A stretch of 64,000 nucleotides of DNA, from positions 1-64,000 of IMG/VR virus record IMGVR_UViG_3300037325_000137; one strand, written 5' to 3'. The first letter of the stretch is position 1. Each line of letters opens with the position of its first letter. The notes under the pieces were generated by a model that saw only the letters and a program-made list of their open reading frames with translations, did no database searches and was not told the origin of the DNA. A program made the position numbers and the translations under genes. This document shows, one piece after another, positions 121 through 64,000 of the stretch. The stretch comes from a virus.

Positions 121-1323
121 ATGAAAGAAATACATAGGTCATATAAATTTAGGATTTACCCGACAAAGGAGCAAGAAACTCTTATGTCTAAACATTTTGG
201 GTGTTCAAGATTTGTATTTAACCATTTCTTAAATGTTCGCAAAGAACAGTACTTGAATGATAAGACTTCTTTGAATTATTATGATAATGCCAATAGCTTA
301 ACTCAATTAAAAAAAGAAGAAGACACAGAATGGTTAAAGGAAGTTAATTCACAATCTTTACAATCTGCTATTAGAAATTTAGATACTGCATATAAAAACT
401 TTTTTAATAAACAAAATCAATTTCCAAAGTTTAAATCAAAATATAATAAACAGAGTTTTAAAATACCTCAAAATGTATTCATTGAAGAAAATACTTTGGT
501 AATACCTAAATTTAAAAGTGGAATTAAAGTAAAGGTTCATAGAGGAATTAAAGGCAAGATACTATTTGCTACGATAAGTAAAAATACAACTGGTAAATAT
601 TATGTATCTGTTACTTGTGATGAAAACTATAAACCTTACTCTAAAACCAAAACATCTATTGGTATTGATGTTGGGATTAAAGATTTTGCAATACTGTCTG
701 ATGGAAAGGTATATGAAAATATTAAACCACTTAAAACTAAATTAAAGAAGTTAAAATATAACCAAAGACAACTATCTAAAAAAGTAAAAGGCAGTGAATC
801 AAGAAATAAACAAAAGCAAAAACTTGGAGTTATATATGAAAATATAACAAATATAAGAACAGATTATTTACATAAAATATCTACTGAAATTGTCAAAAAC
901 CACGACATAATAGTAGTAGAAGATTTGAATGTAAAGGGTATGATGAAGAATCACAAATTAGCACAAGCAATATCAGATGTTAGTTGGGGTACATTTTACA
1001 CTATGTTAGAATATAAATCTAAATGGAACGACAAAGAATATGTTAAAATAGATAGATGGTTTCCATCATCTAAGACGTGTTCTTCTTGTGGTTGGATTAA
1101 ACAAGATTTAGAATTGAAACATAGAGAATGGACTTGTGATAGTTGCAATGAAACTCACGATAGAGATTTGAATGCAGGTAAAAACATACTTAAACAAGGA
1201 TTAAATATAATATCTGGTTGTGGAATACAGTCGGATAAAAAACAAAAACGGAGTAAGGCGTTGCCATTAGGTGAGTCTGTGACCTCCGAAGCCCATCACA
1301 TCGGCTCTGCCGTGGGTGGGTAG
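121..1323 (+). CDS. tnpB: TnpB-family RNA-guided endonuclease
   Basis: TnpB proteins are RNA-guided nucleases of IS200/IS605 elements and relatives of Cas12. The 400 residues fit the usual length. The RuvC-like active site looks intact: Asp183 in GIDVGIKDFA, Glu267 in VVEDLN, and Asp347/Asp349 in THDRDLNAGKNI. A zinc ribbon is formed by Cys320/Cys323 and Cys339/Cys342. The N-terminal segment (SYKFRIYPTKEQE) is the standard helix-turn-helix start. The ATG at 121 follows an AT-rich leader. The last codons overlap the predicted guide RNA scaffold. It faces opposite to the phage genes, so it was inserted independently. Confidence 0.93.
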   Translation: MKEIHRSYKFRIYPTKEQETLMSKHFGCSRFVFNHFLNVRKEQYLNDKTSLNYYDNANSLTQLKKEEDTEWLKEVNSQSLQSAIRNLDTAYKNFFNKQNQFPKFKSKYNKQSFKIPQNVFIEENTLVIPKFKSGIKVKVHRGIKGKILFATISKNTTGKYYVSVTCDENYKPYSKTKTSIGIDVGIKDFAILSDGKVYENIKPLKTKLKKLKYNQRQLSKKVKGSESRNKQKQKLGVIYENITNIRTDYLHKISTEIVKNHDIIVVEDLNVKGMMKNHKLAQAISDVSWGTFYTMLEYKSKWNDKEYVKIDRWFPSSKTCSSCGWIKQDLELKHREWTCDSCNETHDRDLNAGKNILKQGLNIISGCGIQSDKKQKRSKALPLGESVTSEAHHIGSAVGG

Positions 1324-33253: not shown

Positions 33254-36200
33254 AATTTTAGACTCTATTGCTTCTACGTCTACTGCTCTTATTTCTACAT
33301 ATTCCGAACCGATATAAGTTAGTTCTATATCTAAAACATCACCTCTGATGCTTTGACCTTCAATTGATTGGTTTTTATTGTACTTTAAAAAACTTATTGA
33401 TTCATTTAAAGATGTGTTTGCTATTGTTATTTGATTATTAATAACACTCGTGATTACTGACGCTGCAAAACCTAATGATATACTAGATACTGTGTCTCCT
33501 ACGGATAAAGAGCTAGGAACTCCTTGTGAACAATTTATTAAACCGTTTACTATCTCATATGATCCTAGACCAAAAGAGCTATTAGATAGCGGTTCTGAAT
33601 TAGTATTACCCATTATTGCAGCATAAAAATAATCTTCATACTTTTCAAAATGCTCTTTAGGTATTAAAACAGAAGTTAACCTAGTTTTTATAAAAGCATC
33701 CCACGGCTTGTTACTCTGTATAGCCATAGAATTGCATATTTTAACGGTGGATGGTTCGGTGTTTTCAAAGAAATTAATCTTGCTCATAGACTGTACTCCA
33801 AAGAACTCATTATAATTCTCTGTAGCATTCATACGGTACATAACACCATTTTTCCATGCGTAGAACTCATTATTTGCGTTTAGCATAAAATCTGGCTCAA
33901 ACATGAAGTAGTTCGGAAAACCATTTCTAGTTAATTTATATGCCAAGCAAGATTGTTTGTTAGGTATATGTACCACATATTCTTTATGCTTAAAATCATA
34001 TCCAGCAACTAATTTCGTAGACTTATTGTTCGCCATAGCGTTAGAGATTTCATACTCTAAACCATATTGATTTATAGTAGTGACTCCATCGTTAGCGAGT
34101 TGTATAATGTTTCCTCTTTGCTGATCTGTAAAATATTTTCTTCCTTCTATTTTTACATAGCTTTCTGGGTGTAAAGATATTCCGTGTTCCCCACCAGCGT
34201 AAGGTCGCCAACTTCTTTCATCCAAAACATTATTTACAACACCAATAGTTTGATTTCCACTAGCATCATATATGACTTGTTTATTGTAAGGCATAGTACC
34301 AATAGCACTTTCTTGCAATATCAATAGGTTTCCGTTATCGTTATCTATTAGCTGAATACTTCCGTTTTCTTTATCTAATAAAACATAGTTAGGTGCTGAT
34401 AAATTAAACCAATTTAATCCGTTAAAATCTGAATCATCATTGTAAATATCAGACCATTGAACATCTGCGACTCTTGTTATTTCTCTATATCTATCTTTAG
34501 TATTAGATAAAACCCTTATACCAACATCTAAACCTTTTTTGTTAAATTCATCTTTAATCTTGTAGCTTTCTACTCCATTACCATAAGACCAAGCGTTAAA
34601 CCAATCTAGGGTTATAACCAAGGGCTGTGAAGGTAATGATTGTGAAATATCAGTTGAGATATTTTCTATGTCGGTTTCGTAATCGTCAGTTATTTTGCTA
34701 TGTAAATTATCTATAACCCTATATGTTTTTCCAATTTCAAAAAATATTTCTGGTGATTGATCTTTAGGCTCTGTTTCAAATATAGGAATGTTTCTGATTT
34801 GTCTGATTTCAGAAAACACATCAGAATATATGTTTCTTGTGTTTTCTTTTCTTCTATCAGAAGCTATTATTAATGAGTGAGAAATACCTTGTGGATTAAC
34901 GTCAATAAACAACTTATCTCTGTTAGCAGAATTTCCTGTTGAGTATCTTAAATCAACTTCTCTAAACCAAAAGTTTTGTTCTGACCAGTCAAAATTAGGT
35001 TGGCTTTGGATAAGAGAAAATATTTCATCACCATAAAACCATTCTTCAATATTATCATATTTTTGATTTGATTTTACCTCTATTAAAAAACTTCTGCTTG
35101 TATTACTTCTTTCTTTTGCTGAAAAATACTTTAACTTTATAGTACTTCCTGCATTTATAAAATTAGGAACGCTAAATATTGCGTGTGATCTATTGTCTTG
35201 ATCTAATAAAAAAGCTATACTTTTTTTTAGAAGCCACTTGTCGTTTAAAGAGTTTCCTGTTGTTGCAGCAAACCTTACTGAAACGTCTGAATCTAGAACA
35301 ACGTCCGAAGTATCTGTGTCTAATTCTGTCCAAACACTTGGAGGTGTTACTCCGTTTGTCTGTTGTGTTCTAAACCTAAATACGTTAGGGGTTGTAGATA
35401 CATCATGAATTTCTATTTCATACCTTAAATCTTCTGTTCCATTAAAAGTCACAGTTGGGGTTAGCGTGTCTACACCAGAATTTTTAAATTTTATTTTATA
35501 GAATGATTGGTTGTTTTGTGTTACAGGGCCTAGTCCACCACCACTTGCATCGTAATGGTCATATTTTGTAAAACTATAGTTACTTTCGTCGAAAGTTACA
35601 TCTGAATCTATTAATGATATTTTCATATACCAACCACTAGGTTGACCACCATCTTGATCGTTCAAAAAATCTTTATCTTTTCTTTCAAACTCTAATACTT
35701 TTATTTTTTCCAAAGTATTTAAAATACCTTCTCCATCTGCCTTTACTATAACGAAATCTCCCTCTTTAAATTTATCAATATCTGACTGCTCAACTTTAAT
35801 ATACCTATATACACCTTCTTGATAAAATAATGTAGGCAAGAATTGATCATACCCTTTTTTATTCTGAGTAACAAAAAATCTATAATACTTAGCCCAAAAA
35901 GGTGGTTTGTGTCTTAACTCTACTTTTATTTTATTTTCAGTATCACTAGCACTAGCAGGAATCATAATTGTATTAGTCTTACTTACTAACACTGTTGTTG
36001 ACCTTCCATGCTCGTCAGAATACACTAATCCAATCTCTACATCTCTATTTGATCTAACTGTTTTTTTAGGTTCAAGGCTAGGTTTTTGTACGGTAGTTTG
36101 ATTTCCAGTAGGATCTCCATCTGCGTCTAATTCATCTTCTTGAACGTCTATGGTATTCTCTAAAGACTCTAATATTAGATTGTAATCTATGTTTATATTA

Positions 36201-37225
36201 ACGCCATCAATATTTTTAAGGTCATATTGCTCTTTGTAATGAGCATATATAAGCCTACCTTCTATCATTGTTTGAGCTTTAACCTCTCTTGGTACGTTGT
36301 CGAAATAAGATTTTAAAACATTATCTGGTAAAGCTCTATATACTTTTGAGTTGTCAAAAAGAAATGTCTCAATGTCATTATCTTCATATTCTAAATCCTC
36401 TTTATTAAAGTCATCTATAATCCATTCAGTACTACTTTGGCTTTCTTTGTATATGAGCTGTATTTCGGTAACGTTTTTATTACCTGTAAAAAACTCTATT
36501 TGAACTTGGTTAAATTTATTAACCATCGACTTATTTGACTGCTCTGTGAAGTCATAATCAAAAGACTTAGGTTGAAAAGCAGCATTAGTAAAAGGTGCTA
36601 ATGCGCTATACTCACCATCTAAATATCTGTATCTATAAGAGAATGAAAGGAATTTTTCCTCTATATTGTTTTCTACACCTTGACCTGTTACAGTATCATT
36701 AAGAGAAATTCTAAGTTTTTGGTGTGGAGGAATAACAGCCACCATAATGTCTTCTTCCGTAAATCCGTTAAGACCGTATTCTTTTGCTCTTTCTATATTT
36801 ATGCGTCTAGGATTATTAGTCCATTCGCTAATTAATAACAATCCATTTAGTTCATTTACACCTGTTACATATCCATTGTAGTTAAACCTTAGAATGCTTA
36901 TATCGTCTTCTATTATAACCGTTGAAATATTGTTTATAACATCATACTCAACTATTTTAGATGAAACTCTATTAAATGTTGCTAATAAATAATAAACCAA
37001 ATTTTTACTTTCATCAAAATAACCGCCAACACATTTAAAATTCGCTCCTTTTGTTTCGTCGCTTACTATTAACGTACCTTTTATATTTGTGCCAATACCG
37101 TCTTTACCATCGTTTATGTGAAACCTAAGATTTTCTACGTTTCTAGTAGAACCATTTGGAACTAAAGATCTGTCTAAATCTTTTTCCATTACGCCATTAG
37201 TAAATAAACTTCTTAATTTTGCCAT
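33251..37225 (-). CDS. Large tail/stabilisation protein
   Basis: The 1,324-residue protein begins MAKLRSLFTNGVMEKDLDRS followed by LVPNGSTRNVENLRF. This N-terminal pattern (KDLDxxLxPNGxxRxxxN) is characteristic of a family of large tail proteins in crAss-like and related Bacteroidota podoviruses. The rest is beta-rich, consistent with a tail-hub or muzzle protein. It abuts the ring-protein-like gene upstream and is followed by a terminator. Confidence 0.8.
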   Translation of the reverse strand: MAKLRSLFTNGVMEKDLDRSLVPNGSTRNVENLRFHINDGKDGIGTNIKGTLIVSDETKGANFKCVGGYFDESKNLVYYLLATFNRVSSKIVEYDVINNISTVIIEDDISILRFNYNGYVTGVNELNGLLLISEWTNNPRRINIERAKEYGLNGFTEEDIMVAVIPPHQKLRISLNDTVTGQGVENNIEEKFLSFSYRYRYLDGEYSALAPFTNAAFQPKSFDYDFTEQSNKSMVNKFNQVQIEFFTGNKNVTEIQLIYKESQSSTEWIIDDFNKEDLEYEDNDIETFLFDNSKVYRALPDNVLKSYFDNVPREVKAQTMIEGRLIYAHYKEQYDLKNIDGVNINIDYNLILESLENTIDVQEDELDADGDPTGNQTTVQKPSLEPKKTVRSNRDVEIGLVYSDEHGRSTTVLVSKTNTIMIPASASDTENKIKVELRHKPPFWAKYYRFFVTQNKKGYDQFLPTLFYQEGVYRYIKVEQSDIDKFKEGDFVIVKADGEGILNTLEKIKVLEFERKDKDFLNDQDGGQPSGWYMKISLIDSDVTFDESNYSFTKYDHYDASGGGLGPVTQNNQSFYKIKFKNSGVDTLTPTVTFNGTEDLRYEIEIHDVSTTPNVFRFRTQQTNGVTPPSVWTELDTDTSDVVLDSDVSVRFAATTGNSLNDKWLLKKSIAFLLDQDNRSHAIFSVPNFINAGSTIKLKYFSAKERSNTSRSFLIEVKSNQKYDNIEEWFYGDEIFSLIQSQPNFDWSEQNFWFREVDLRYSTGNSANRDKLFIDVNPQGISHSLIIASDRRKENTRNIYSDVFSEIRQIRNIPIFETEPKDQSPEIFFEIGKTYRVIDNLHSKITDDYETDIENISTDISQSLPSQPLVITLDWFNAWSYGNGVESYKIKDEFNKKGLDVGIRVLSNTKDRYREITRVADVQWSDIYNDDSDFNGLNWFNLSAPNYVLLDKENGSIQLIDNDNGNLLILQESAIGTMPYNKQVIYDASGNQTIGVVNNVLDERSWRPYAGGEHGISLHPESYVKIEGRKYFTDQQRGNIIQLANDGVTTINQYGLEYEISNAMANNKSTKLVAGYDFKHKEYVVHIPNKQSCLAYKLTRNGFPNYFMFEPDFMLNANNEFYAWKNGVMYRMNATENYNEFFGVQSMSKINFFENTEPSTVKICNSMAIQSNKPWDAFIKTRLTSVLIPKEHFEKYEDYFYAAIMGNTNSEPLSNSSFGLGSYEIVNGLINCSQGVPSSLSVGDTVSSISLGFAASVITSVINNQITIANTSLNESISFLKYNKNQSIEGQSIRGDVLDIELTYIGSEYVEIRAVDVEAIESKI

Positions 37226-38055
37226 TATGCTATACCGCTATATCTTGTTCCTGTAAACTCTAATATTTCTTCTTTAGTAATCTTAGCTCCTAATAATCTA
37301 CTAGCTCTCTTAAAATATTTTTTCTTTTCTTTTTCATGAAACATTACGACATTCATTGGCACGTTTCTTTGACCTTGTAAGGAGTAATATTTTATATAGA
37401 ACTCTACAGCTCTTTCCATGTTATGATGTACTTTAATATCACAAGCTTTAGTTTCATTTAATCCAGCTGTTACAAATTCTATTACAACTTCTTTATCTTC
37501 TAAGTCTGTACTAAACTCAAAGTAATTAGCTTCTAAATTTTCTTTTACAAAGCTATTCTCATATGTTCTAGAGTCACTGCAAGGTGTTACTAATAGACTG
37601 CATTCTACCGCTATTCTACAGTGACCAATTTCTGCATTAAAAGAATTAGCTTCTAATATTTCTCCATCACAATCATAAAGCAGTTCAGCTTCGTTATCTT
37701 GTAAGTAATCACGTATAGTAGGGTTGTTATTTATATTAAGAGGTGTCAGTGTTCCACATTCATTTATAACAGAAATTCTAAACCAATCTGTCATAAATCT
37801 AGGGAATGGAAATGTAAGATTTGGGGGAACTGTAATTGATATAGCTTTCTTTTTAGATAATATATCTACATTAAATTCCTTTATAGCCATTTTGCCTAAT
37901 ATCTCTAGTGTGTAATTAGGAATATTTTTAAAATAACTGTCATCACCAGACATTAAGGATATGTTGTCTAGAATATTTTTAAGAGAAACAAATCTTCTTT
38001 CTCCAAAACGTTCTTCGTTTTCGTAGTACTGATCGTCTGTAGTAGCAAAACTCAT
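37225..38055 (-). CDS. Connector/ring protein
   Basis: A 276-residue protein placed between another small connector-like protein and the large tail protein, sharing one base with the latter. Podovirus head-tail connector (ring) proteins occupy this position. No sequence motif proves it. Confidence 0.6.
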   Translation of the reverse strand: MSFATTDDQYYENEERFGERRFVSLKNILDNISLMSGDDSYFKNIPNYTLEILGKMAIKEFNVDILSKKKAISITVPPNLTFPFPRFMTDWFRISVINECGTLTPLNINNNPTIRDYLQDNEAELLYDCDGEILEANSFNAEIGHCRIAVECSLLVTPCSDSRTYENSFVKENLEANYFEFSTDLEDKEVVIEFVTAGLNETKACDIKVHHNMERAVEFYIKYYSLQGQRNVPMNVVMFHEKEKKKYFKRASRLLGAKITKEEILEFTGTRYSGIA

Positions 38056-57750: not shown

Positions 57751-57768
57751 ATTGATTTATATTGATTT
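57751..57768. repeat. Direct repeat beside the integrase start, possible att arm sites
   Basis: ATTGATTT occurs twice (57751-57758 and 57761-57768) between the integrase ATG and the first attC arm. Short direct repeats flanking a crossover core are typical of phage attP and of attI sites. Confidence 0.4.
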
Positions 57769-57777
57769 GTTAGTTAT

Positions 57778-57803
57778 GGTTGATATATAGTAGTTAGCAA
57801 ACA
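57778..57803 (-). repeat. attC half site (R'' arm) at the phage/array junction
   Basis: GGTTGATATATAGTAGTTAGC matches the right-arm pattern of array sites. The partner arm is missing; the integrase gene follows at once. This is expected if the phage integrated into this attC. Confidence 0.5.
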
Positions 57804-58084
57804 TTATTCAAATAATCACAGTACATTTTTGCCTGTTCTTCGCTATGTATAAAGAACACTACCTCTATACCTTTGCCATCGAGTACCGCTTTACCTTGTT
57901 TTCTGCCAACTCTAAAAGGTGGTGTATATTTATTAGCATCATAACGTTTGCTAACACCAGATAAAATTAATGCCTCGTCTACTGCATTTTTAATAAGTCC
58001 TATACATTCTTCTTTTGCTAATGAAGTTCCTACCCAACTTTTTAAATTTTGTGCATGTTTATCAATTATTTGCTCTTTAGTCAT
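57794..58084 (-). CDS. Cassette gene 1: hypothetical protein
   Basis: A 96-residue protein (MTKEQIIDKHAQNLKSWVGT...) of unknown family, with a mixed C-terminal half (GIEVVFFIHSEEQAKMYCDY). The TAA stop is part of the R'' core TGCTAAC. It is the cassette closest to the phage integrase. Confidence 0.65.
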   Translation of the reverse strand: MTKEQIIDKHAQNLKSWVGTSLAKEECIGLIKNAVDEALILSGVSKRYDANKYTPPFRVGRKQGKAVLDGKGIEVVFFIHSEEQAKMYCDYLNNVC

Positions 58085-58117
58085 TGTCTATTTATTTAAT
58101 TATTGTTATTATTTATC

Positions 58118-58158
58118 GGCACTAATCTTATCTGCGGTACGTTAGCTACAAGTGCTTA
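58118..58158 (-). repeat. attC half site of cassette 2
   Basis: GGCACTAATCTTATCTGCGG followed by TACGTTAGCTAC is an R'' arm. No partner arm precedes the start of cassette gene 1, so the site is truncated. Confidence 0.6.
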
Positions 58159-58875
58159 ATTTAGTTGATTAAACAAAGTTGGTGCTTCAATCTCTTTTTC
58201 TTTTTTTTTCCCCACCCTTTCACTCGCAATATCAAAATAATCCTGTTGCATTTCAATTCCAATAAATCTTCTATTTAGGTTTTTACAAGCAACTCCTGTT
58301 GTACCACTACCCATAAAAGGGTCTAATACTACTTCGTTTTCATTAGTTGAGTTGTTTATATAAAATTCCATTAATTCTATTGGTTTTTCTGTTGGGTGTA
58401 CTTTACTCCCAATTATATTATTAAAAGAATGTACTGTTTTGCTTCCGCCAATGTCATTTATGTATTTAGATTTTCCTTTTCTAAAAAATATAGTGTACTC
58501 GCAATTCTTCATATAAAATTGAGAAGGTGTGCAGTTGTTTTTTTGCCAAACTAAAAAGTTTTGTATTTTAAATCCTGCTTTTTCTATCTCGTTTGCCATT
58601 TTTAGTAAATTAGAAGAGTTTACCATCACATAGTTTTGAGTTCCATCTTTTAGTATTCTAAACATTTCTGGCAACCATTCACTAAATTTAGGAACACTCC
58701 TCATTAGTTCTCTATTTCCTTTCAATATACCTTTTGGTCTAATACTGTTTTTGCCATTACTATCACCTCCTGTTATTATTTTATAAGGAGGGTCAGTAAC
58801 TACACAATCAATACTTTCGCTTGGTAATGTTTTTAATATTTCAAGGGCATCACCCATTTTTAAATCTATATTCAT
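58156..58875 (-). CDS. Cassette gene 2: DNA methyltransferase (N6-adenine/N4-cytosine, beta class)
   Basis: It transfers methyl groups from S-adenosylmethionine to DNA. The catalytic motif DPPY is at residues 28-31 and the AdoMet-binding DPFMGSGTTG near the C-terminus. The order DPPY, target-recognition region, FxGxG defines the beta class. At 239 residues it is compact. No restriction endonuclease is adjacent, so it is an orphan methylase, possibly protecting DNA from host or competing restriction. The cassette ends pair imperfectly: GTTAGCTACAAGTGC with GCACCAGTAGGTAAC. Confidence 0.9.
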   Translation of the reverse strand: MNIDLKMGDALEILKTLPSESIDCVVTDPPYKIITGGDSNGKNSIRPKGILKGNRELMRSVPKFSEWLPEMFRILKDGTQNYVMVNSSNLLKMANEIEKAGFKIQNFLVWQKNNCTPSQFYMKNCEYTIFFRKGKSKYINDIGGSKTVHSFNNIIGSKVHPTEKPIELMEFYINNSTNENEVVLDPFMGSGTTGVACKNLNRRFIGIEMQQDYFDIASERVGKKKEKEIEAPTLFNQLN

Positions 58876-58967
58876 AATGTTTTAATTTTATCAAATTAAT
58901 TTGCCAACGCTCAAAAAAGAAAATAAAAAGGTTCAGTTCTATTAATTAAGTTTAGGTGTTTAAAGTC

Positions 58968-59036
58968 GCACCAGTAGGTAACACTGTATAAAAGCCATTG
59001 AAAATAACGGCTCTTATACCCATCCGTTAGCAACAA
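58968..59036 (-). repeat. attC site, cassette 3/2 junction
   Basis: AACACTGTATAAAAGCC and GGCTCTTATACCCATCCGTT form a clean stem with a 12-base loop. It is one of the shortest and clearest attC-type sites in the array. Confidence 0.85.
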
Positions 59037-59279
59037 TTAATTGCCCTGTAAGTAATTGTCTGCAATCCATTCTTTACTTACAAACCTATTTCCTCCACCT
59101 TTTTCAAGGCTTGTTAAAAGGTCAATTAACAGTTCCCTTCGGTTGCTAACATCGTTTAACCGTAATTGCTCGGTTACGTACTTATCTATGAAGTCTGTTA
59201 ACCATTCTACCTTTTCATTTCCAGTCATATCGTTTCTTGATACAAGTTGGTTTAATTTTTCAATCTCTGTTATTTTCAT
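59037..59279 (-). CDS. Cassette gene 3: hypothetical protein
   Basis: An 80-residue charged helical protein (MKITEIEKLNQLVSRNDMTG...) of unknown family, ending GGGNRFVSKEWIADNYLQGN. Its stop lies eight bases from the R'' core. Confidence 0.65.
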   Translation of the reverse strand: MKITEIEKLNQLVSRNDMTGNEKVEWLTDFIDKYVTEQLRLNDVSNRRELLIDLLTSLEKGGGNRFVSKEWIADNYLQGN

Positions 59280-59313
59280 CTGTTCTTATTTATTAAGTTT
59301 TGTTATTAATTCA

Positions 59314-59349
59314 CGCAACTACGGTTACACGTAGCCGTTGTAGTGCATT
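59314..59349 (-). repeat. attC site, cassette 4/3 junction (very short)
   Basis: GCAACTACGG and CCGTTGTAGTGC flank a nested CTACG...CGTAG stem. Two unpaired bases (CC) resemble the extrahelical bases of attC. Confidence 0.7.
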
Positions 59350-59645
59350 TACATTACGTTTCGCTCGATACTTATGTTTTTATCAGTAACAACTACTATA
59401 AAGCTTGTTCTTTGCACCGCCAAAGGGGCTTTTTTTTCAAGATGTTTAAGAACGTGGTTTGCACCATTATTTACTATATCACGTCTAGTTTTTAATTGAT
59501 GAAGTTTGTTTTGTACTTGCTCAATTTCGGCTTCCAATTCTTCTTTCTCTAAAGCTATATTCACTAATATATCAGCCCCTTTTATTTCCTCGCCTTGAAT
59601 AAGGTCAGTAATTCCAGAGAAACTTAGGTCGTCAATTTTTTTCAT
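59349..59645 (-). CDS. Cassette gene 4: coiled-coil protein
   Basis: From MKKIDDLSFSGITDLIQGEE the protein has 98 residues; a GTG start at 59660 is less likely. The centre (ALEKEELEAEIEQVQNKLHQ) is a clear coiled coil. Its cassette ends are perfectly complementary: GTTGTAGTGC (59337) with GCACTACAAC (59657). Function is unknown. Confidence 0.65.
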   Translation of the reverse strand: MKKIDDLSFSGITDLIQGEEIKGADILVNIALEKEELEAEIEQVQNKLHQLKTRRDIVNNGANHVLKHLEKKAPLAVQRTSFIVVVTDKNISIERNVM

Positions 59646-59656
59646 AGCAAAAAAAC

Positions 59657-59795
59657 GCACTACAACACTGTATAAAAATAATAGCCTGTTGTAGTGTCTT
59701 TTTAGTGGCTATTACTCACTTATTAATTAATTGTTTAACTTAAACTTTTCGCTTATTTATTCGGCTACTATTCTTATACTAAACGTTGTAAGTAA
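59657..59795 (-). repeat. attC site, cassette 5/4 junction (long, branched)
   Basis: The outer arms AACACTGTATAAAAATAATAGCC and GGCTACTATTCTTATACTAAACGTT enclose about 76 bases. A 10-bp perfect repeat CACTACAACA/TGTTGTAGTG and AATAGCC/GGCTATT offer alternative folds, comparable to long Vibrio repeat sites. Confidence 0.8.
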
Positions 59796-60029
59796 TTAAG
59801 GTTCGAGATACCTCAAAGGCACTTCTTTACTCCAAAAACCACCCTTATCAATGTTCTGTACTAACGCTCTTGGTTCGTCATAATATTCTTGTGTTTTACC
59901 ATCTTGAAATATTGGATAATACACCAACATCCATCTGTCTTTTTTACCATCCATTTTATAAACGCTTTCGTTACGCTTATGATTTTTCCAAATCGGGTGG
60001 TTTAAGGCTTTTTCTAAATCTATGTTCAT
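59796..60029 (-). CDS. Cassette gene 5: hypothetical protein
   Basis: A 77-residue protein with many aromatic residues (KDRWMLVYYPIFQDGKTQEY). No family is recognised. The cassette ends are perfectly complementary over 10 bp (GTTGTAAGTA/TACTTACAAC). Confidence 0.65.
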   Translation of the reverse strand: MNIDLEKALNHPIWKNHKRNESVYKMDGKKDRWMLVYYPIFQDGKTQEYYDEPRALVQNIDKGGFWSKEVPLRYLEP

Positions 60030-60046
60030 TTCTTATTTGCTTTAAC

Positions 60047-60256
60047 TACTTACAACACTATATATAATTAATATAAAAGGGGCGCAGTCCAACTATCCGT
60101 TATTCCTTTCGGGTCAAGCCTAAGCCCCCACGGAAGGAACGTTTTACAGGCTTTGGACACCTTCAATTTCACTATCTAAAACGCTGTTGGTAAACCCACT
60201 AATTTCTGCATTTTTAACCCCTTTTAAACTAATCATATATTTTACGTTATAAACAA
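60047..60256 (-). repeat. attC site, cassette 6/5 junction (about 200 bp)
   Basis: The left arm AACACTATATATAATTAATATAAAAGGGG and right arm CCCCTTTTAAACTAATCATATATTTTACGTT enclose a loop of about 135 bases without a gene. Confidence 0.75.
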
Positions 60257-60519
60257 TACTCTTTTTGTGTATATGGTTCAGAGTAGAAGCATTTATCAGT
60301 ACTATCAAATTTAATATTTCTATACCAAGTTATTTCTGTATTTGTTGTTTTTCCTGTTCTACTACTGCAATCACAATCTTTATGACATTGGCAACTACCA
60401 TTATCAATAGAAGTGTATTTTTTAGTAAATATTCTATAAGAAACACCATCTATAATTGTGATTTGCAATGCTTCCATTTCTATATTCAATCTTTTAGGGT
60501 TTAACAATCTTTCTCGCAT
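60247..60519 (-). CDS. Cassette gene 6: Cys-rich, lipoprotein-like protein
   Basis: The first ATG inside the cassette gives 90 residues (MRERLLNPKRLNIEMEALQI...) with a Cys/His cluster CQCHKDCDC. In the same frame the upstream attC encodes LTGLLFIACVINC, a hydrophobic stretch with a lipobox-like IAC, readable from TTG at 60567. A farther in-frame ATG (60612) is followed two codons later by TGA. Export through an attC-encoded signal is possible. The cassette ends pair as GTTATAAAC/GTTTATAAC. Confidence 0.55.
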   Translation of the reverse strand: MRERLLNPKRLNIEMEALQITIIDGVSYRIFTKKYTSIDNGSCQCHKDCDCSSRTGKTTNTEITWYRNIKFDSTDKCFYSEPYTQKEYCL

Positions 60520-60531
60520 AACTTCCGTACA

Positions 60532-60631
60532 GTTTATAACACAGGCTATAAATAAAAGCCCTGTCAAGGTTATTGTTGTGAATCGAACTTTGTGTTTAGG
60601 GCTTCAATTCATAGCCGAGCCGTTATCTTTA
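60532..60631 (-). repeat. attC site, cassette 6b/6 junction
   Basis: AACACAGGCTATAAATAAAAGCCC and GGGCTTCAATTCATAGCCGAGCCGTT pair almost fully, with extra unpaired bases on one side. The site also encodes the hydrophobic extension of cassette gene 6. Confidence 0.85.
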
Positions 60632-60799
60632 ATAATCAAACTCTTCCTCATTTAATACATCAAAGTGAATATCCTCATTTAATACATCAAAGTGAATATC
60701 CTCTATTTTGTTTTTAATAAACAGTCTTTTAATTCGATAGATAACTAAAGATAACAATGTATAAAATGCATAGCTTAATTTCGTTCTTAAATTTTTCAT
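60629..60799 (-). CDS. Cassette gene 6b: small protein with attC-encoded hydrophobic N-terminus
   Basis: The 56 residues (MKNLRTKLSYAFYTLLSLVI...) end with two copies of EDIHFDVLN from a 27-bp tandem duplication. No ATG exists inside the cassette itself, whose boundary is at 60746-60755, so translation must start in the upstream attC. The N-terminus looks like a membrane anchor. Function is unknown. Confidence 0.55.
   Translation of the reverse strand: MKNLRTKLSYAFYTLLSLVIYRIKRLFIKNKIEDIHFDVLNEDIHFDVLNEEEFDY
60646..60699 (-). repeat. 27-bp tandem duplication
   Basis: Two identical in-frame 27-bp units (60646-60672 and 60673-60699) within cassette gene 6b. Confidence 0.9.
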
Positions 60800-60895
60800 C
60801 TGTTCTGTTTTTAAAGTTTATAATTTATAATTAATTCAAAGTCTGTGGTGTTTAGGTCGCTACGCACCTTATACTAAACGTTGTGTGTAATACTT
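60746..60895 (-). repeat. attC site, cassette 7/6b junction
   Basis: AACAATGTATAAAATGCATAGC and GCTACGCACCTTATACTAAACGTT form the arms. The start codon of cassette gene 6b lies in the loop. TAAAGATAAC at its left edge pairs with GTTATCTTTA at 60622. Confidence 0.82.
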
Positions 60896-61137
60896 TATTT
60901 AGGTTCGTTTACAGCATTACTATCTACTTTTTTCCAAGGACGTTCTATCATATTACAACCTGCTTGATACCAAGTTTGTATTTGTAATTTATTACATTTT
61001 GTACACTTTCTAAAATGAGCATATCTATTATCTTCTTTTCTACCACCGTCCCAATACTTATAAGGATGATATAAATTAAAAAAACAAAGTAATTTTTGCA
61101 ATGCTTTAGGTTTGTCTATTCTTAAAACTTTTTCCAT
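60895..61137 (-). CDS. Cassette gene 7: putative zinc-binding protein
   Basis: The 80 residues include FRKCTKCNKLQIQTWYQAGC, a likely zinc knuckle. The cassette ends are perfectly complementary over 14 bp (GTTGTGTGTAATAC/GTATTACACACAAC), the longest match in the array. Function is unknown. Confidence 0.68.
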   Translation of the reverse strand: MEKVLRIDKPKALQKLLCFFNLYHPYKYWDGGRKEDNRYAHFRKCTKCNKLQIQTWYQAGCNMIERPWKKVDSNAVNEPK

Positions 61138-61164
61138 TTTAATAAAGTTTGTGGCTTAAATTCC

Positions 61165-61274
61165 GTATTACACACAACAATGTATATAGTTTATAAGCCA
61201 ATTAATATTTGTTTTTAATTTGTAAATTTCTGATATGGCTTACAAAACCATATACTCAACGTTAGGCACAATTA
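61165..61274 (-). repeat. attC site, cassette 8/7 junction
   Basis: AACAATGTATATAGTTTATAAGCCA and TGGCTTACAAAACCATATACTCAACGTT are well-matched arms around a loop of about 35 bases. Confidence 0.85.
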
Positions 61275-61577
61275 AGGTTTGCGTCCTAATAACTTACTTA
61301 GCTTCATCCCCAACCACTCAGGGCAAGGTATAGCTACTACCCATCTTAAATAAGGCAATATACCTACAAAACCAATCCCCCAATGCTCTGTTGCAACTAT
61401 TGAAACTTCAAAGCTAAATGCGTCTAAAGTCCAAAATGTAAATATTAGCCATCTAAAACTAAAACTACTTGTATTGTGTTCGTCTGCTTTCCTTATTTCT
61501 ATTAAGGGTATTAATGGAAATACATTTTTGTTGTACCATTTTTCTGTTCTCATTCTTCCTGATGCTGTTTGTGACAT
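61272..61577 (-). CDS. Cassette gene 8: predicted membrane-associated protein
   Basis: The 101 residues contain an aromatic hydrophobic centre (SFRWLIFTFWTLDAFSFEVS and GIGFVGILPYLRWVVAIP). The Ser-rich N-terminus has no signal peptide. The family is not named here. The ends pair as GTTAGGCAC/GTGCCTAAC. Confidence 0.65.
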   Translation of the reverse strand: MSQTASGRMRTEKWYNKNVFPLIPLIEIRKADEHNTSSFSFRWLIFTFWTLDAFSFEVSIVATEHWGIGFVGILPYLRWVVAIPCPEWLGMKLSKLLGRKP

Positions 61578-61585
61578 AATTAAAA

Positions 61586-61680
61586 GTGCCTAACAATAGC
61601 TAAAGTTAATAGCCTCAATAGGTCTTGTTATAATTTGATGGTTAGTATTAAAGGCTACTAACCTTAGCCTAGACGTTATG
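61586..61680 (-). repeat. attC site, cassette 9/8 junction
   Basis: AACAATAGCTAAAGTTAATAGCC and GGCTACTAACCTTAGCCTAGACGTT pair around a loop of about 35 bases. Confidence 0.83.
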
Positions 61681-61834
61681 ATGCAATTAAAATTTTAAGC
61701 ATCTCGTTTAACTTCCCTACACATTGAGCATAGTATCGTTCATTATCTTCCTGTTTCATTATTTTAGCTACTTCATAAAGGTCTGTATAAATACCAATTT
61801 TCTTTATTACAATACTTTTTAGTTCATCCATCAT
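61676..61834 (-). CDS. Cassette gene 9: small helical protein
   Basis: From MMDELKSIVIKKIGIYTDLY the protein has 52 residues. The extra residues of a longer frame come from the cassette boundary. The TAA stop overlaps the R'' core. No family is recognised. Confidence 0.6.
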   Translation of the reverse strand: MMDELKSIVIKKIGIYTDLYEVAKIMKQEDNERYYAQCVGKLNEMLKILIAS

Positions 61835-61847
61835 TAAAATTTTAAAA

Positions 61848-61950
61848 GCACATAACAATGTATAAAATTAATGCGCTATGATAATTAGTGTTAAATTTTT
61901 AAGTATGTGGTTAGCGCACTAATCTTATACTAACTGCAATGTTGCTATTT
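61848..61950 (-). repeat. attC site, cassette 10/9 junction
   Basis: AACAATGTATAAAATTAATGCGC and GCGCACTAATCTTATACTAACTGCAATGTT pair well. GCACATAAC at its edge pairs with GTTATGATGC at 61675 with one bulge. Confidence 0.83.
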
Positions 61951-62193
61951 AAAGTTTTGCCTAAACGGCTTGTTACATTTTGGACAAGAAGTGCCTAAAT
62001 ACAAGCCTTTGATTATCGGTTCGCAACACTGTTCGCTCTGCCTTACAACAACGGGTATAGAAAATAATTCAGAAGGCATCAGTCTTTCTATCACGTCTAT
62101 TGCACTCCATATTTCTCTTGATTCATAACTGTGATGTATTGAGTCAAAGTGTTCTGCTCTTTTTTCTAGTGTTTTAATAACGTCTGCTTTCAT
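61945..62193 (-). CDS. Cassette gene 10: putative zinc-ribbon protein
   Basis: The 82 residues have helical N-terminal sequence (MKADVIKTLEKRAEHFDSIH) and a C-terminal zinc site (QCCEP...TSCPKCNKPF). The TAG stop lies in the R'' arm. Function is unknown. Confidence 0.66.
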   Translation of the reverse strand: MKADVIKTLEKRAEHFDSIHHSYESREIWSAIDVIERLMPSELFSIPVVVRQSEQCCEPIIKGLYLGTSCPKCNKPFRQNFK

Positions 62194-62230
62194 CTTTTAA
62201 GTTTTTGCGTTTTAAATCCTCCTAAATTAA

Positions 62231-62256
62231 ATTCCATACCCAAACCGTTAGCATTA
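62231..62256 (-). repeat. attC half site of cassette 11
   Basis: CCATACCCAAACCGTTAGC is an R'' arm. The partner arm before cassette gene 10 is missing or unrecognisable. Confidence 0.45.
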
Positions 62257-62373
62257 ATACTCAGTACCTAAGTATTCTACTAAATAAGGGTAGTCCCAAC
62301 TTTTACTGCTACTGTAATACATTTTCCAGTAACCTCTATTATTCTTTATTATTTCAGTCCATTTACTTGTCAT
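62254..62373 (-). CDS. Cassette gene 11: 39-residue protein
   Basis: MTSKWTEIIKNNRGYWKMYY then SSSKSWDYPYLVEYLGTEY, rich in aromatic residues. The complete cassette is under 160 bp. Its ends pair over 14 positions with one mismatch (GTTAGCATTAATAC/GTACTAATGCTAAC), which strongly supports it as a mobile unit. Confidence 0.6.
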   Translation of the reverse strand: MTSKWTEIIKNNRGYWKMYYSSSKSWDYPYLVEYLGTEY

Positions 62374-62393
62374 AGTTTCTATTTTTTAAGTCC

Positions 62394-62455
62394 GTACTAA
62401 TGCTAACAATATGTAAAAAACATTAAAACGATGTGTTATACTAGACGTTAGCAAA
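62394..62455 (-). repeat. attC site, cassette 12/11 junction
   Basis: AACAATATGTAAAAAACA and TGTGTTATACTAGACGTT form a short stem with a loop of about nine bases. Confidence 0.8.
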
Positions 62456-62732
62456 CATTTATGTTGTTGCTATCTATAAAGCTTTTAGGATTTCCGCAAC
62501 CTATTAAAAACTCTGCTCCGTTACCTAATTTAAAGTAACATCTATCCCAATCATTGCTTCTATCGAAAGTAAAATTTTCACCTTTTTTTATGGTATAATA
62601 ACACCCTTTCCAACTCAAATTCTCCCTTCTATTGTTAGGTATATTACCCACATCAGTGGCTTCTATGGGTGTGCTACCATACCTACCTTTATCAATAAAA
62701 ACTCTAATATCTTCTGTTGCTTGTAAATTCAT
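62448..62732 (-). CDS. Cassette gene 12: hypothetical protein
   Basis: From MNLQATEDIRVFIDKGRYGS the protein has 94 residues; a longer frame includes the cassette boundary. It is beta-rich with several Cys/Trp (WKGCYYTIKKG, RCYFKLGNGAEFLIGCG). No family is named. The ends pair as GTTAGCAAA/TTTGCTAAC. Confidence 0.64.
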   Translation of the reverse strand: MNLQATEDIRVFIDKGRYGSTPIEATDVGNIPNNRRENLSWKGCYYTIKKGENFTFDRSNDWDRCYFKLGNGAEFLIGCGNPKSFIDSNNINVC

Positions 62733-62742
62733 AATTAAACGA

Positions 62743-62850
62743 TTTGCTAACACAACCTATACACCATAAAGCAATATAGTATTGTGCTAATATTAAACAT
62801 TGTGCTACGCTTTACGGTGCATAGCTTTACCGTTGGCGGTAATACTACAT
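62743..62850 (-). repeat. attC site, cassette 13/12 junction
   Basis: AACACAACCTATACACCATAAAGC and GCTTTACGGTGCATAGCTTTACCGTT pair closely around a loop of about 30 bases. Confidence 0.83.
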
Positions 62851-63195
62851 TAGTACCTTATCCATCATTTCATTTATGTTCTCCGCAATTTTTTCATCAT
62901 AACCTCTATTGTAAAATTCATCGCCAGTAGTCAAATGATAAGTACCTATGTTATCCAAATACTGTTTCATTTTTTCATAAGGTTCAGTATTTTCATACCC
63001 TATCAAATTAAGATAAGACCAATAACATTTAATAGAAAATTGCTCTGTGTTTGTTCCTCTATCTGTTCTTTTTTCGTTTTGTCTTTGTATCCATAAGGCT
63101 TGTTCTTTCTTGTAGTCTGTGTACTTTAAAGCCGTACTACTGCCAACAAAAAATATAGCAAATGCTTTTCGTAATCTTTGGGTAAATTGTTTCAT
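62845..63195 (-). CDS. Cassette gene 13: protein with attC-encoded hydrophobic N-terminus
   Basis: The 116 residues begin MKQFTQRLRKAFAIFFVGSS. The first 20 or so residues, a basic then hydrophobic signal-like stretch, are encoded by the left arm of the upstream attC. The cassette boundary (63134-63147) falls at VGSST, and no usable ATG occurs in the first 70 codons of the cassette. The soluble part has Tyr/Glu-rich helices. Function is unknown. Confidence 0.6.
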   Translation of the reverse strand: MKQFTQRLRKAFAIFFVGSSTALKYTDYKKEQALWIQRQNEKRTDRGTNTEQFSIKCYWSYLNLIGYENTEPYEKMKQYLDNIGTYHLTTGDEFYNRGYDEKIAENINEMMDKVLM

Positions 63196-63262
63196 ACTTC
63201 TAATTTTTAGTTCATTTAAGTTAGAGTGTTGTTGGCACTTGCCATCTTCAAACCGTTAGCCA
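63134..63262 (-). repeat. attC site, cassette 14/13 junction
   Basis: AACAAAAAATATAGCAAATGC and GGCACTTGCCATCTTCAAACCGTT are the arms. GTACTACTGCCAAC at its edge pairs with GTTGGCGGTAATAC at 62832 at 12 of 14 positions. Confidence 0.75.
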
Positions 63263-63522
63263 CCATTTGAAAAACCGCACTCATCCAAGAAGCTTTGTCC
63301 AACAGGAGAACCTAACCATTGAATTAAGTTTACGCAAATATCTTCTTCTTTTTCGGACAACCACTCTTTAGGTTGCGTTTGTCTATCATTAGACCACCCA
63401 TTCACAATAGCACTTAGGCTTTTTCTGGCAGAACCATCATGATTGAACATTTTAATAAATTTATCGTGAAATTCTTTTTCTTTAGGATTGTCATTAAATC
63501 TGTATTCTTTATTGCCTTTCAT
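63256..63522 (-). CDS. Cassette gene 14: hypothetical protein
   Basis: An 88-residue charged protein (MKGNKEYRFNDNPKEKEFHD...) with a Trp-containing C-terminal half. The TAA stop is part of the R'' core. The ends pair as GTTAGCCACC/GGTGGCTAAC. No family is recognised. Confidence 0.66.
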   Translation of the reverse strand: MKGNKEYRFNDNPKEKEFHDKFIKMFNHDGSARKSLSAIVNGWSNDRQTQPKEWLSEKEEDICVNLIQWLGSPVGQSFLDECGFSNGG

Positions 63523-63530
63523 AGTAAAAC

Positions 63531-63662
63531 GGTGGCTAACAATGTATATAGCAAATAGCCTTATTAGCCATTTTAGAAACTACTTGCTTGTTTATAATTT
63601 ATTTACTTTTTACTTAATTCTGTGATAGGCTACTTGCCATATACTAAACATTGTAGTGCATT
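63531..63662 (-). repeat. attC site beside cassette 14
   Basis: AACAATGTATATAGCAAATAGCC and GGCTACTTGCCATATACTAAACATTG pair around a loop of about 65 bases. Confidence 0.82.
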
Positions 63663-63700
63663 AAAACGTTCGATTCGCCACAACAACACGCTATATAAAT
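63650..63700 (-). other. Possible empty mini-cassette
   Basis: Between the R'' arm at 63650 and a left-arm-like CACAACAACACGCTATATAA at 63679 there are only about 30 bases and no gene. It may be a cassette that lost its gene. Confidence 0.35.
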
Positions 63701-63753
63701 AATGCTTGGTTTCGTGCTGTAATCAAAGTTTAGCGCTTTTAATGCCATAATTA
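63680..63753 (-). repeat. Poorly conserved attC-like site of the last cassette
   Basis: AACACGCTATATAAATAATGC looks like a left arm. The right arm (GCGCTTTTAATGCCATAATT) is weakly matched. Spacing fits the array. Confidence 0.35.
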
Positions 63754-63981
63754 AATATTTTTAAAAACCCATTCACCATTTAGTTTCCAAGTTTCTTTAT
63801 CATAGTAAACTTCTACTACTATATTTTGCATTTTATTATGGCAACGTAAATTTCCACAAGAGAAGTCTACTGCTTCAATACCTAATTCATCATTTACATC
63901 AATAAAATCTTGGTTTTTACTCGTTGCTATCAACCTTACTGGGTATTCTGCTTTCTTTTTTAATACTTCTTTTAAGTTCAT
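63751..63981 (-). CDS. Cassette gene 15: hypothetical protein
   Basis: A 76-residue protein (MNLKEVLKKKAEYPVRLIAT...) with VDFSCGNLRCHNKMQNIVVE, which could bind metal. No family is recognised. Its upstream boundary is beyond the window. Confidence 0.62.
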   Translation of the reverse strand: MNLKEVLKKKAEYPVRLIATSKNQDFIDVNDELGIEAVDFSCGNLRCHNKMQNIVVEVYYDKETWKLNGEWVFKNI

Positions 63982-64000
63982 TTTTAAAAATATTTAATTA

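Follow-up and report, generated by a model that had tools for sequence, protein, structure and literature searches.

A putative integron-like gene-capture platform with a Xer-like recombinase in a phage of Bacteroidota

The virus record IMGVR_UViG_3300037325_000137 is 78,375 bases long, and the window analysed here (its bases 1-64000) ends in a tandem array of small gene-carrying units, which are separated by hairpin-forming sites and adjoin the gene for a 269-amino-acid tyrosine recombinase. Judging from its sequence, we consider it very probable that this array is a phage-borne, integron-like platform for gene capture, in which the recombinase would join the hairpin sites with an attI-like point. 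The proposal draws on the anatomy of the array, the mobility of its units, a fixed insertion point, the absence of the additional domain of integron integrases (IntI) and wobble pairs confined to one strand of the hairpin stems, all of which the sequence itself shows. The system behaves like an integron yet fails the IntI-based definition, in that the additional domain is missing. We read this as an integron variant with a Xer-like recombinase, and one that bears on the origin of integrons.

In the mechanism that we propose, the 269-amino-acid protein, as the probable catalyst, would join the hairpin that one strand of a cassette forms to an attI-like point, short and double-stranded, located 5' of the recombinase gene. 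Written on the gene strand, a cassette would be C-[hairpin]-G-TTRRRY-gene-RYYYAA, and both excision and insertion would join RYYYAA|C. The newest units should enter beside the recombinase while older units are displaced outward, and the cargo would consist of small, mostly unknown genes together with some DNA methyltransferases.

Array anatomy and strand asymmetry of the hairpins

A preliminary description of this DNA had proposed an array of units on one strand, each ending in a palindrome with conserved boxes, and this proposal held up well. Positions 57953 to 63652 hold 15 two-armed sites (+ strand AAC...GTT), of which sites 11 and 12 in Table 1 are weak, and the conserved boxes AACAATGTATA / TATACTAAACGTT are present in the array. 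The units measure ~0.12 to 0.84 kb and every gene lies on the - strand. Also borne out was the statement that gene stops lie near a palindrome arm: stop codons fall at the G|TT junction or no more than about 10 nt from it, and several gene starts fall within hairpins. On the + strand a unit starts with G|TTRRRY and ends with RYYYAAC, and both ends are complementary over ~9-14 bases within the same unit, as in GTTGTGTGTAATAC...GTATTACACACAAC. Between units come AAC, a spacer, a 17-bp stem, a loop (very short to ~150 nt), the returning stem, a spacer and GTT.

A linked-site finder that requires both the AAC-stem-GTT arrangement and complementarity of the unit ends returned 11 links within the array versus 0 elsewhere in the 78-kb record, with both strands scanned. 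Across 160 loci it returned 549 links, compared with 2 in shuffled controls. For 10 window sites, 96% of the stem cells are paired and 13 pairs carry double changes, a result equalled in 0 of 500 shuffles. The stems align without gaps at 15-20 bp and need no bulges.

The two strands of these stems are not equivalent. Every one of the 11 well-formed sites in the window carries G.T on the - strand at stem positions 7 and 12, and the + strand is consequently mismatched (A.C) at both. Among 93 distinct model-aligned sites from relatives, 78 have letters at position 12 and 75 of these show G.T, and a model-independent search gave A.C versus C.A at the corresponding position in ratios of 194 to 8 (phage) and 46 to 0 (bacterial). 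The folding energy is better for the - strand at 11 of 14 window sites, and this strand forms a hairpin at nearly all sites; the failure to fold that the preliminary description had named as a sign against integron-type sites was not seen. Strand choice in classical attC sites is set by extrahelical bases (PMC2727003), and the present sites have wobbles instead of such bulges. Most likely it is the gene strand (the - strand here) that folds into the substrate, paired through the conserved G.T wobbles at positions 7 and 12, and these wobbles would mark the strand, which is the role of extrahelical bases in attC.

Two further observations concern arrays of this type. A second small array, with genes on the + strand and hence opposite to the window array, lies at L003:10541-11000 (record about 74440-74900). 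It contains a truncated site that shares 90% identity with window site 9 across 63 bp, as well as one full hairpin at record 74698-74890, and no recombinase was seen beside it. In another locus (L026:6165-7419), a 133-136 bp stretch occurs three times at 99-100% identity, ending at unit ends inside one array, and is a recent duplication.

The recombinase, its insertion point and the movement of units

Beyond what the preliminary description had noticed, the array has an adjoining recombinase gene, an attI-like point and a worn stretch that seems to continue past the end of the window into L003, to about record position 64130. NCBIfam places the recombinase close to XerA, XerD and integron integrase, with no score reaching its cut-off (for TIGR02249, 157.7 bits against 265 bits), and IntI profiles match it in two pieces with a gap between them. 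A profile search of the record for IntI hit solely this protein, and no IntI was found. In a joint alignment, the KDR-to-HxLRH spacing is 65 residues here, 64-66 in the phage recombinases, 70-71 in most bacterial relatives, 78 in XerD and 112 in 13 IntI proteins including IntI1. Because 65 rather than 112 residues separate KDR from HxLRH, the IntI additional domain (I2) is absent.

An AlphaFold2 model of the recombinase (mean pLDDT 84.6, pTM 0.61) has XerA as its first structural match, followed by IntI4, with 4a8e and 5hxy as the best PDB entries. In a phylogenetic tree whose root is insecure and in which XerD forms a long branch, IntI is one clade (100/100), and a branch (97/100) divides the phage recombinases, some bacterial array-linked recombinases and IntI from XerA-like Bacteroidota enzymes. 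Loci of the XerA-like side (e.g. L126, and also L147, which is outside the tree) likewise carry linked sites.

Relatives of the recombinase at 52-67% identity were collected from 80 viral loci. Array sites lie 5' of the recombinase in 42/42 non-redundant loci with at least 2.5 kb of upstream sequence, linked sites across loci number 302 upstream versus 16 downstream, and all of the 108 cmsearch sites in recombinase-linked viral loci are on the recombinase strand. The motif AAC-N3/4-(A/T)TATAT occurs 35-55 nt 5' of the recombinase start codon in 31/31 loci, with a variable far side, and matches 2% of random stretches. This motif is the attI-like point, which the window has at 57751-57795. Recombinases of Nitrospirota, Altarchaeota and Gemmatimonadota (L091, L107 and L128) had no linked sites beside them in a de novo search.

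Individual units have moved between arrays that otherwise differ, as illustrated by a 495-bp unit of L018 and L078 (99.4% identity) and a 315-bp unit of L041 and L075 (100% identity). When the first pair is aligned base by base, the match runs from the hairpin before the gene to the next RYYYAAC, and in 13 exchange boundary events the break fell on the gene strand's 5' R box. From these boundaries we conclude that the hairpin travels with the gene downstream of it (on the gene strand). The classical assignment, in which the hairpin belongs to the gene whose stop precedes it, is ruled out by the shared units. As far as sequence can indicate, the unit boundaries and the polarity of the wobbles agree with recombination of the bottom strand only.

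Closely related isolates reveal the point of entry. Polaribacter phages Freya_1, 2, 6, 8, 9 and 10, for which one Polaribacter host strain is listed, are 99.8-100% identical in matching stretches of the region. They carry whole-unit insertions at a single point 49 bp 5' of the recombinase, with identical flanks: Freya_2 is Freya_1 plus 842 bp, Freya_6 is Freya_2 plus 1374 bp and Freya_10 is Freya_9 plus 307 bp. An internal 902-bp unit of Freya_9 is precisely missing from Freya_8, and by eye the stem pattern is the same in two Freya units. Like the attI site of an integron, the entry site adjoins the integrase gene, both in the 31 loci with the conserved motif and in the Freya isolates. A gene order fixed among distant relatives, which the preliminary description had considered a mark of immobile units, is likewise not what the relatives display. 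In the original paper the Freya integrase was read as pointing to a potentially temperate lifestyle (PMC8776804). In Polaribacter phages Danklef_1 to _5, a relative of this integrase, annotated as two genes, matches over residues 96-271 alone; the gene is probably broken or split. The Danklef isolates, too, differ in genome length.

The preliminary description had assigned the array to a Bacteroidota genome. The record encodes a terminase, a portal and structural proteins, and in a tblastn search the terminase shared 57% identity with its counterpart in Tenacibaculum phage Gundel_1 (78.8 kb, Pachyviridae) and 29% with those in Cellulophaga phages phi46:3 and phi18:3. These genes, and the likeness of the terminase to that of Gundel_1, therefore place the array on a Bacteroidota phage rather than on a bacterial chromosome, although related arrays in classical orientation do exist in Bacteroidota contigs. 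A crAss-like identity, first guessed from gene sizes, was dropped after the terminase search led to Gundel_1 and the Cellulophaga phages. A terminase is present in 4 related records (phrog_6681, strong) and in 10 records (Terminase_6N, above cut-off), the others being unproven as phage, and a contamination check for bacterial ribosomal protein S9 found none in 34 phage records.

A cut at RYYYAA|C on the gene strand would make the gene strand equivalent to the bottom strand of a classical attC. Cassette genes lie on this strand in 187 of 191 phage units, and 71 of these 187 start within a hairpin. In related bacterial arrays of Bacteroidota (e.g. Aequorivita L125 and Flavobacterium terrisoli L126), by contrast, 40 of 44 genes are on the top strand, which is the classical orientation, and in the loci inspected the recombinase is upstream and reads in the same direction as the genes. 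The opposite gene strands therefore imply that the phage form has its cassette content inverted relative to the site; its genes are not on the top strand and are not read away from attI, as integron cassettes are defined to be. Because they point at the recombinase, a Pc promoter at attI could not read them, and they are probably transcribed with the phage's own leftward operon instead of from an attI-side promoter. With regard to cargo, no more than about ten of 82 scanned proteins match Pfam, including N6_N4_Mtase in 3, D12 class methyltransferase in 2, an RNA ligase, an exoribonuclease, an acetyltransferase and a PARP-like domain. Besides the methyltransferase open reading frame (ORF), ten window ORFs were scanned and none was reported as a Pfam match.

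The F. terrisoli array (L126:12997-17883) has nine linked sites beside a XerA-like recombinase without the IntI domain, and its genes are in classical orientation. Arrays resembling it occur in L104, L153 and L154.

Alternative explanations and relation to known integrons

The phage system shares many features with classical integrons (class 1, Vibrio superintegron), namely a tyrosine recombinase adjoining an attI point, tandem units with a RYYYAAC...GTTRRRY core, complementary unit ends, hairpin sites, mostly one small unknown ORF per unit and exchange between arrays. Its cassettes are bounded by G|TTRRRY with complementary R boxes, as expected of integron cassettes, and they move between arrays, as the shared units and the Freya isolates demonstrate. 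However, IntI has the I2 domain that the phage recombinase lacks, attC has extrahelical bases whereas the stems here are gapless with one-sided G.T/A.C wobbles, and the genes of phage arrays appear to sit on the strand that recombines. The integron-type label of the preliminary description is thus only partly apt: the cassettes behave accordingly (own-end complementarity, hairpins, attI and exchange), but an IntI with the additional domain is missing.

Some observations weigh against the gene-capture reading. Three of the 16 boundary events end on the other side of the hairpin, the Freya recombinase is only 37% identical to the window recombinase, and there are degenerate sites among those in the window. 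In addition, the Bacteroidetes promoter motif TAnnTTTG precedes 10% of cassette genes versus 4% in shuffles, a weak signal that we rejected as a basis for interpreting expression.

The strongest competing explanation, although we judge it unlikely, is that the recombinase uses duplex sites in the manner of XerC/D or a phage integrase, such that the hairpins are inverted core pairs whose folding is incidental. The enzyme is indeed Xer-like and lacks the domain with which IntI binds extrahelical bases, and a duplex-like phage stem can serve as a Xer substrate (CTXphi, discussed in PMC4792948). However, loop lengths vary over the full range given above while the 17-bp stems co-vary, the one-sided wobbles allow one strand to fold perfectly and the other not, and units end on the 5' R box in 13/16 events.

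We find it improbable that a host IntI acts on the sites in trans while the neighbouring recombinase merely integrates the phage. IntI is above the NCBIfam cut-off in 70/247 genomes from the phylum group of G057, which is more than the literature led us to expect. Moreover, in the work of Qi et al. 2023 (PMC9892861), the attC2 site of Polaribacter phage P12002L was recombined by IntI1 through its bottom strand; the cassette region of P12002L gives weak R1 matches, which need not coincide with this attC2. Against a role in trans stand the 42/42 association with a phage recombinase, the conserved attI-like point directly 5' of its gene and the fact that every Freya insertion adjoins the recombinase gene. 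Furthermore, the record has no IntI, and neither an R1 match nor a linked site was found near 13 IntI genes (the class 1 integron and 12 other IntI loci).

That the hairpins are terminators or regulatory structures, with turnover by ordinary homologous recombination between them, is hardly credible even though they are AT-rich and situated between genes, and even though phage accessory regions turn over through recombination, given that a terminator does not need complementary unit ends, that each exchange boundary falls at one point, RYYYAA|C, and that genes so often start inside hairpins while insertions enter at one fixed point beside the recombinase.

Several known systems resemble the proposed integron-like platform in part. 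XerA, XerC and XerD share its fold and the lack of an additional domain, but they serve chromosome dimer resolution at dif, whereas the phage enzyme is accompanied by cassette arrays and an attI-like point. Among the integron-like simple tyrosine recombinases of Smyshlyaev et al. 2021 (PMC8138268), the catalytic-domain insertion is likewise not fully conserved, and the available portion of that article describes no cassette arrays, sites or phage carriage for insertion-less members. Using IntI-based software, Qi et al. (PMC9892861) found three complete integrons, one In0 and integrase-less attC arrays (CALINs) in phages, P12002L included. These elements share attC-like sites, cassettes and DNA methyltransferase cargo with the present system, and the excerpts of that report describe no I2-less recombinase or inverted cassettes. 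Our search of the open-access literature, with preprints and most subscription journals outside its reach, found the system unreported.

The additional domain of IntI has been taken to define integrons and to be necessary for the recombination of folded cassettes, and IntegronFinder-type searches require an IntI-specific domain (PMC9024848; PMC9668308). A widespread cassette system without I2 would escape such tools. We can also imagine, with the odds somewhat against it, a separate integron class of many Bacteroidota phages and Bacteroidota genomes, without I2 or extrahelical bases, that surrounds IntI in the tree and whose arrays predate I2. For Escudero et al. 2016 (PMC4792948), the joint evolution of I2 and extrahelical bases posed a 'chicken-egg paradox', and these authors speculated on a viral origin. 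If such a separate class is real, it would be the functional intermediate sought in this paradox and would lend support to the idea that phages had a part in how integrons arose. A working array without I2 or extrahelical bases would be the piece missing from their argument, and the system offers an experimental handle on the origin of single-strand cassette recombination, a question raised in the same paper. Phages might also gain and lose accessory genes cassette by cassette, for example methyltransferases that could guard against host restriction. The cultured phages Freya, Gundel_1 and P12002L make the system testable.

Coordinates and minor observations

Table 1. Features of the array region in window coordinates.
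Feature	Position	Strand	Basis
Tyrosine recombinase, 269 aa	56941..57750	-	Pfam Phage_integrase 3.6e-37, SAM_4
attI-like insertion point	57751..57795	-	GTTTGCTAA|C then TACTATATATCAAC (- strand), 5' of recombinase start
Hairpin site 1, loop ~140 nt holding start of ORF 57794-58084	57953..58143	-	fold and arms
Hairpin site 2	58980..59028	-	R1 35.7 bits
Hairpin site 3, long, gene start inside	59148..59339	-	finder score 13; own ends GTTAGCAACA/GTTAGCAACC
Hairpin site 4	59664..59787	-	R1 54.3 bits
Hairpin site 5, long loop	60054..60248	-	- strand fold -22.7; finder
Hairpin site 6	60538..60624	-	R1 59.7 bits
Hairpin site 7, gene start inside	60753..60882	-	fold; finder score 15
Hairpin site 8	61176..61263	-	R1 44.2 bits
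Hairpin site 9	61592..61677	-	R1 64.3 bits
Hairpin site 10	61854..61943	-	R1 45.8 bits
Hairpin site 11, weak, own-end match of preceding unit lost	62047..62249	-	finder score 11
Hairpin site 12, short, degenerate	62405..62449	-	R1 24.1 bits
Hairpin site 13	62749..62834	-	R1 53.1 bits
Hairpin site 14, start of ORF 62845-63195 inside	63145..63257	-	R1 48.7 bits
Hairpin site 15	63538..63652	-	R1 53.2 bits
Cassette ORF, 96 aa, closest to recombinase	57794..58084	-	no Pfam match
Cassette ORF, DNA N4/N6 methyltransferase, 239 aa	58156..58875	-	PF01555 2e-41
Other cassette ORFs, function unknown	59037-59279, 59349-59660, 59796-60029, 60247-60522, about 60640-60800, 60895-61137	-	
Other cassette ORFs, function unknown	61272-61577, 61676-61858, 61945-62193, 62448-62733, 62845-63195, 63256-63522	-	
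Worn far end of array with ORF 63751-63981	63653..64000	-	sequence by eye

A scan of the window for Rfam families and tRNA gave no match. In the related phage record of L028 (G012, 35987-38014), the terminase reading frame contains one in-frame TGA, which reflects either recoding or a sequence error. Finally, by eye, a TnpB-like ORF (window 121-1323) and a TnpA (IS200)-like ORF (L003:13993-14325) lie at opposite ends of the record, and this arrangement suggests that the contig ends may join across an IS605-type element.

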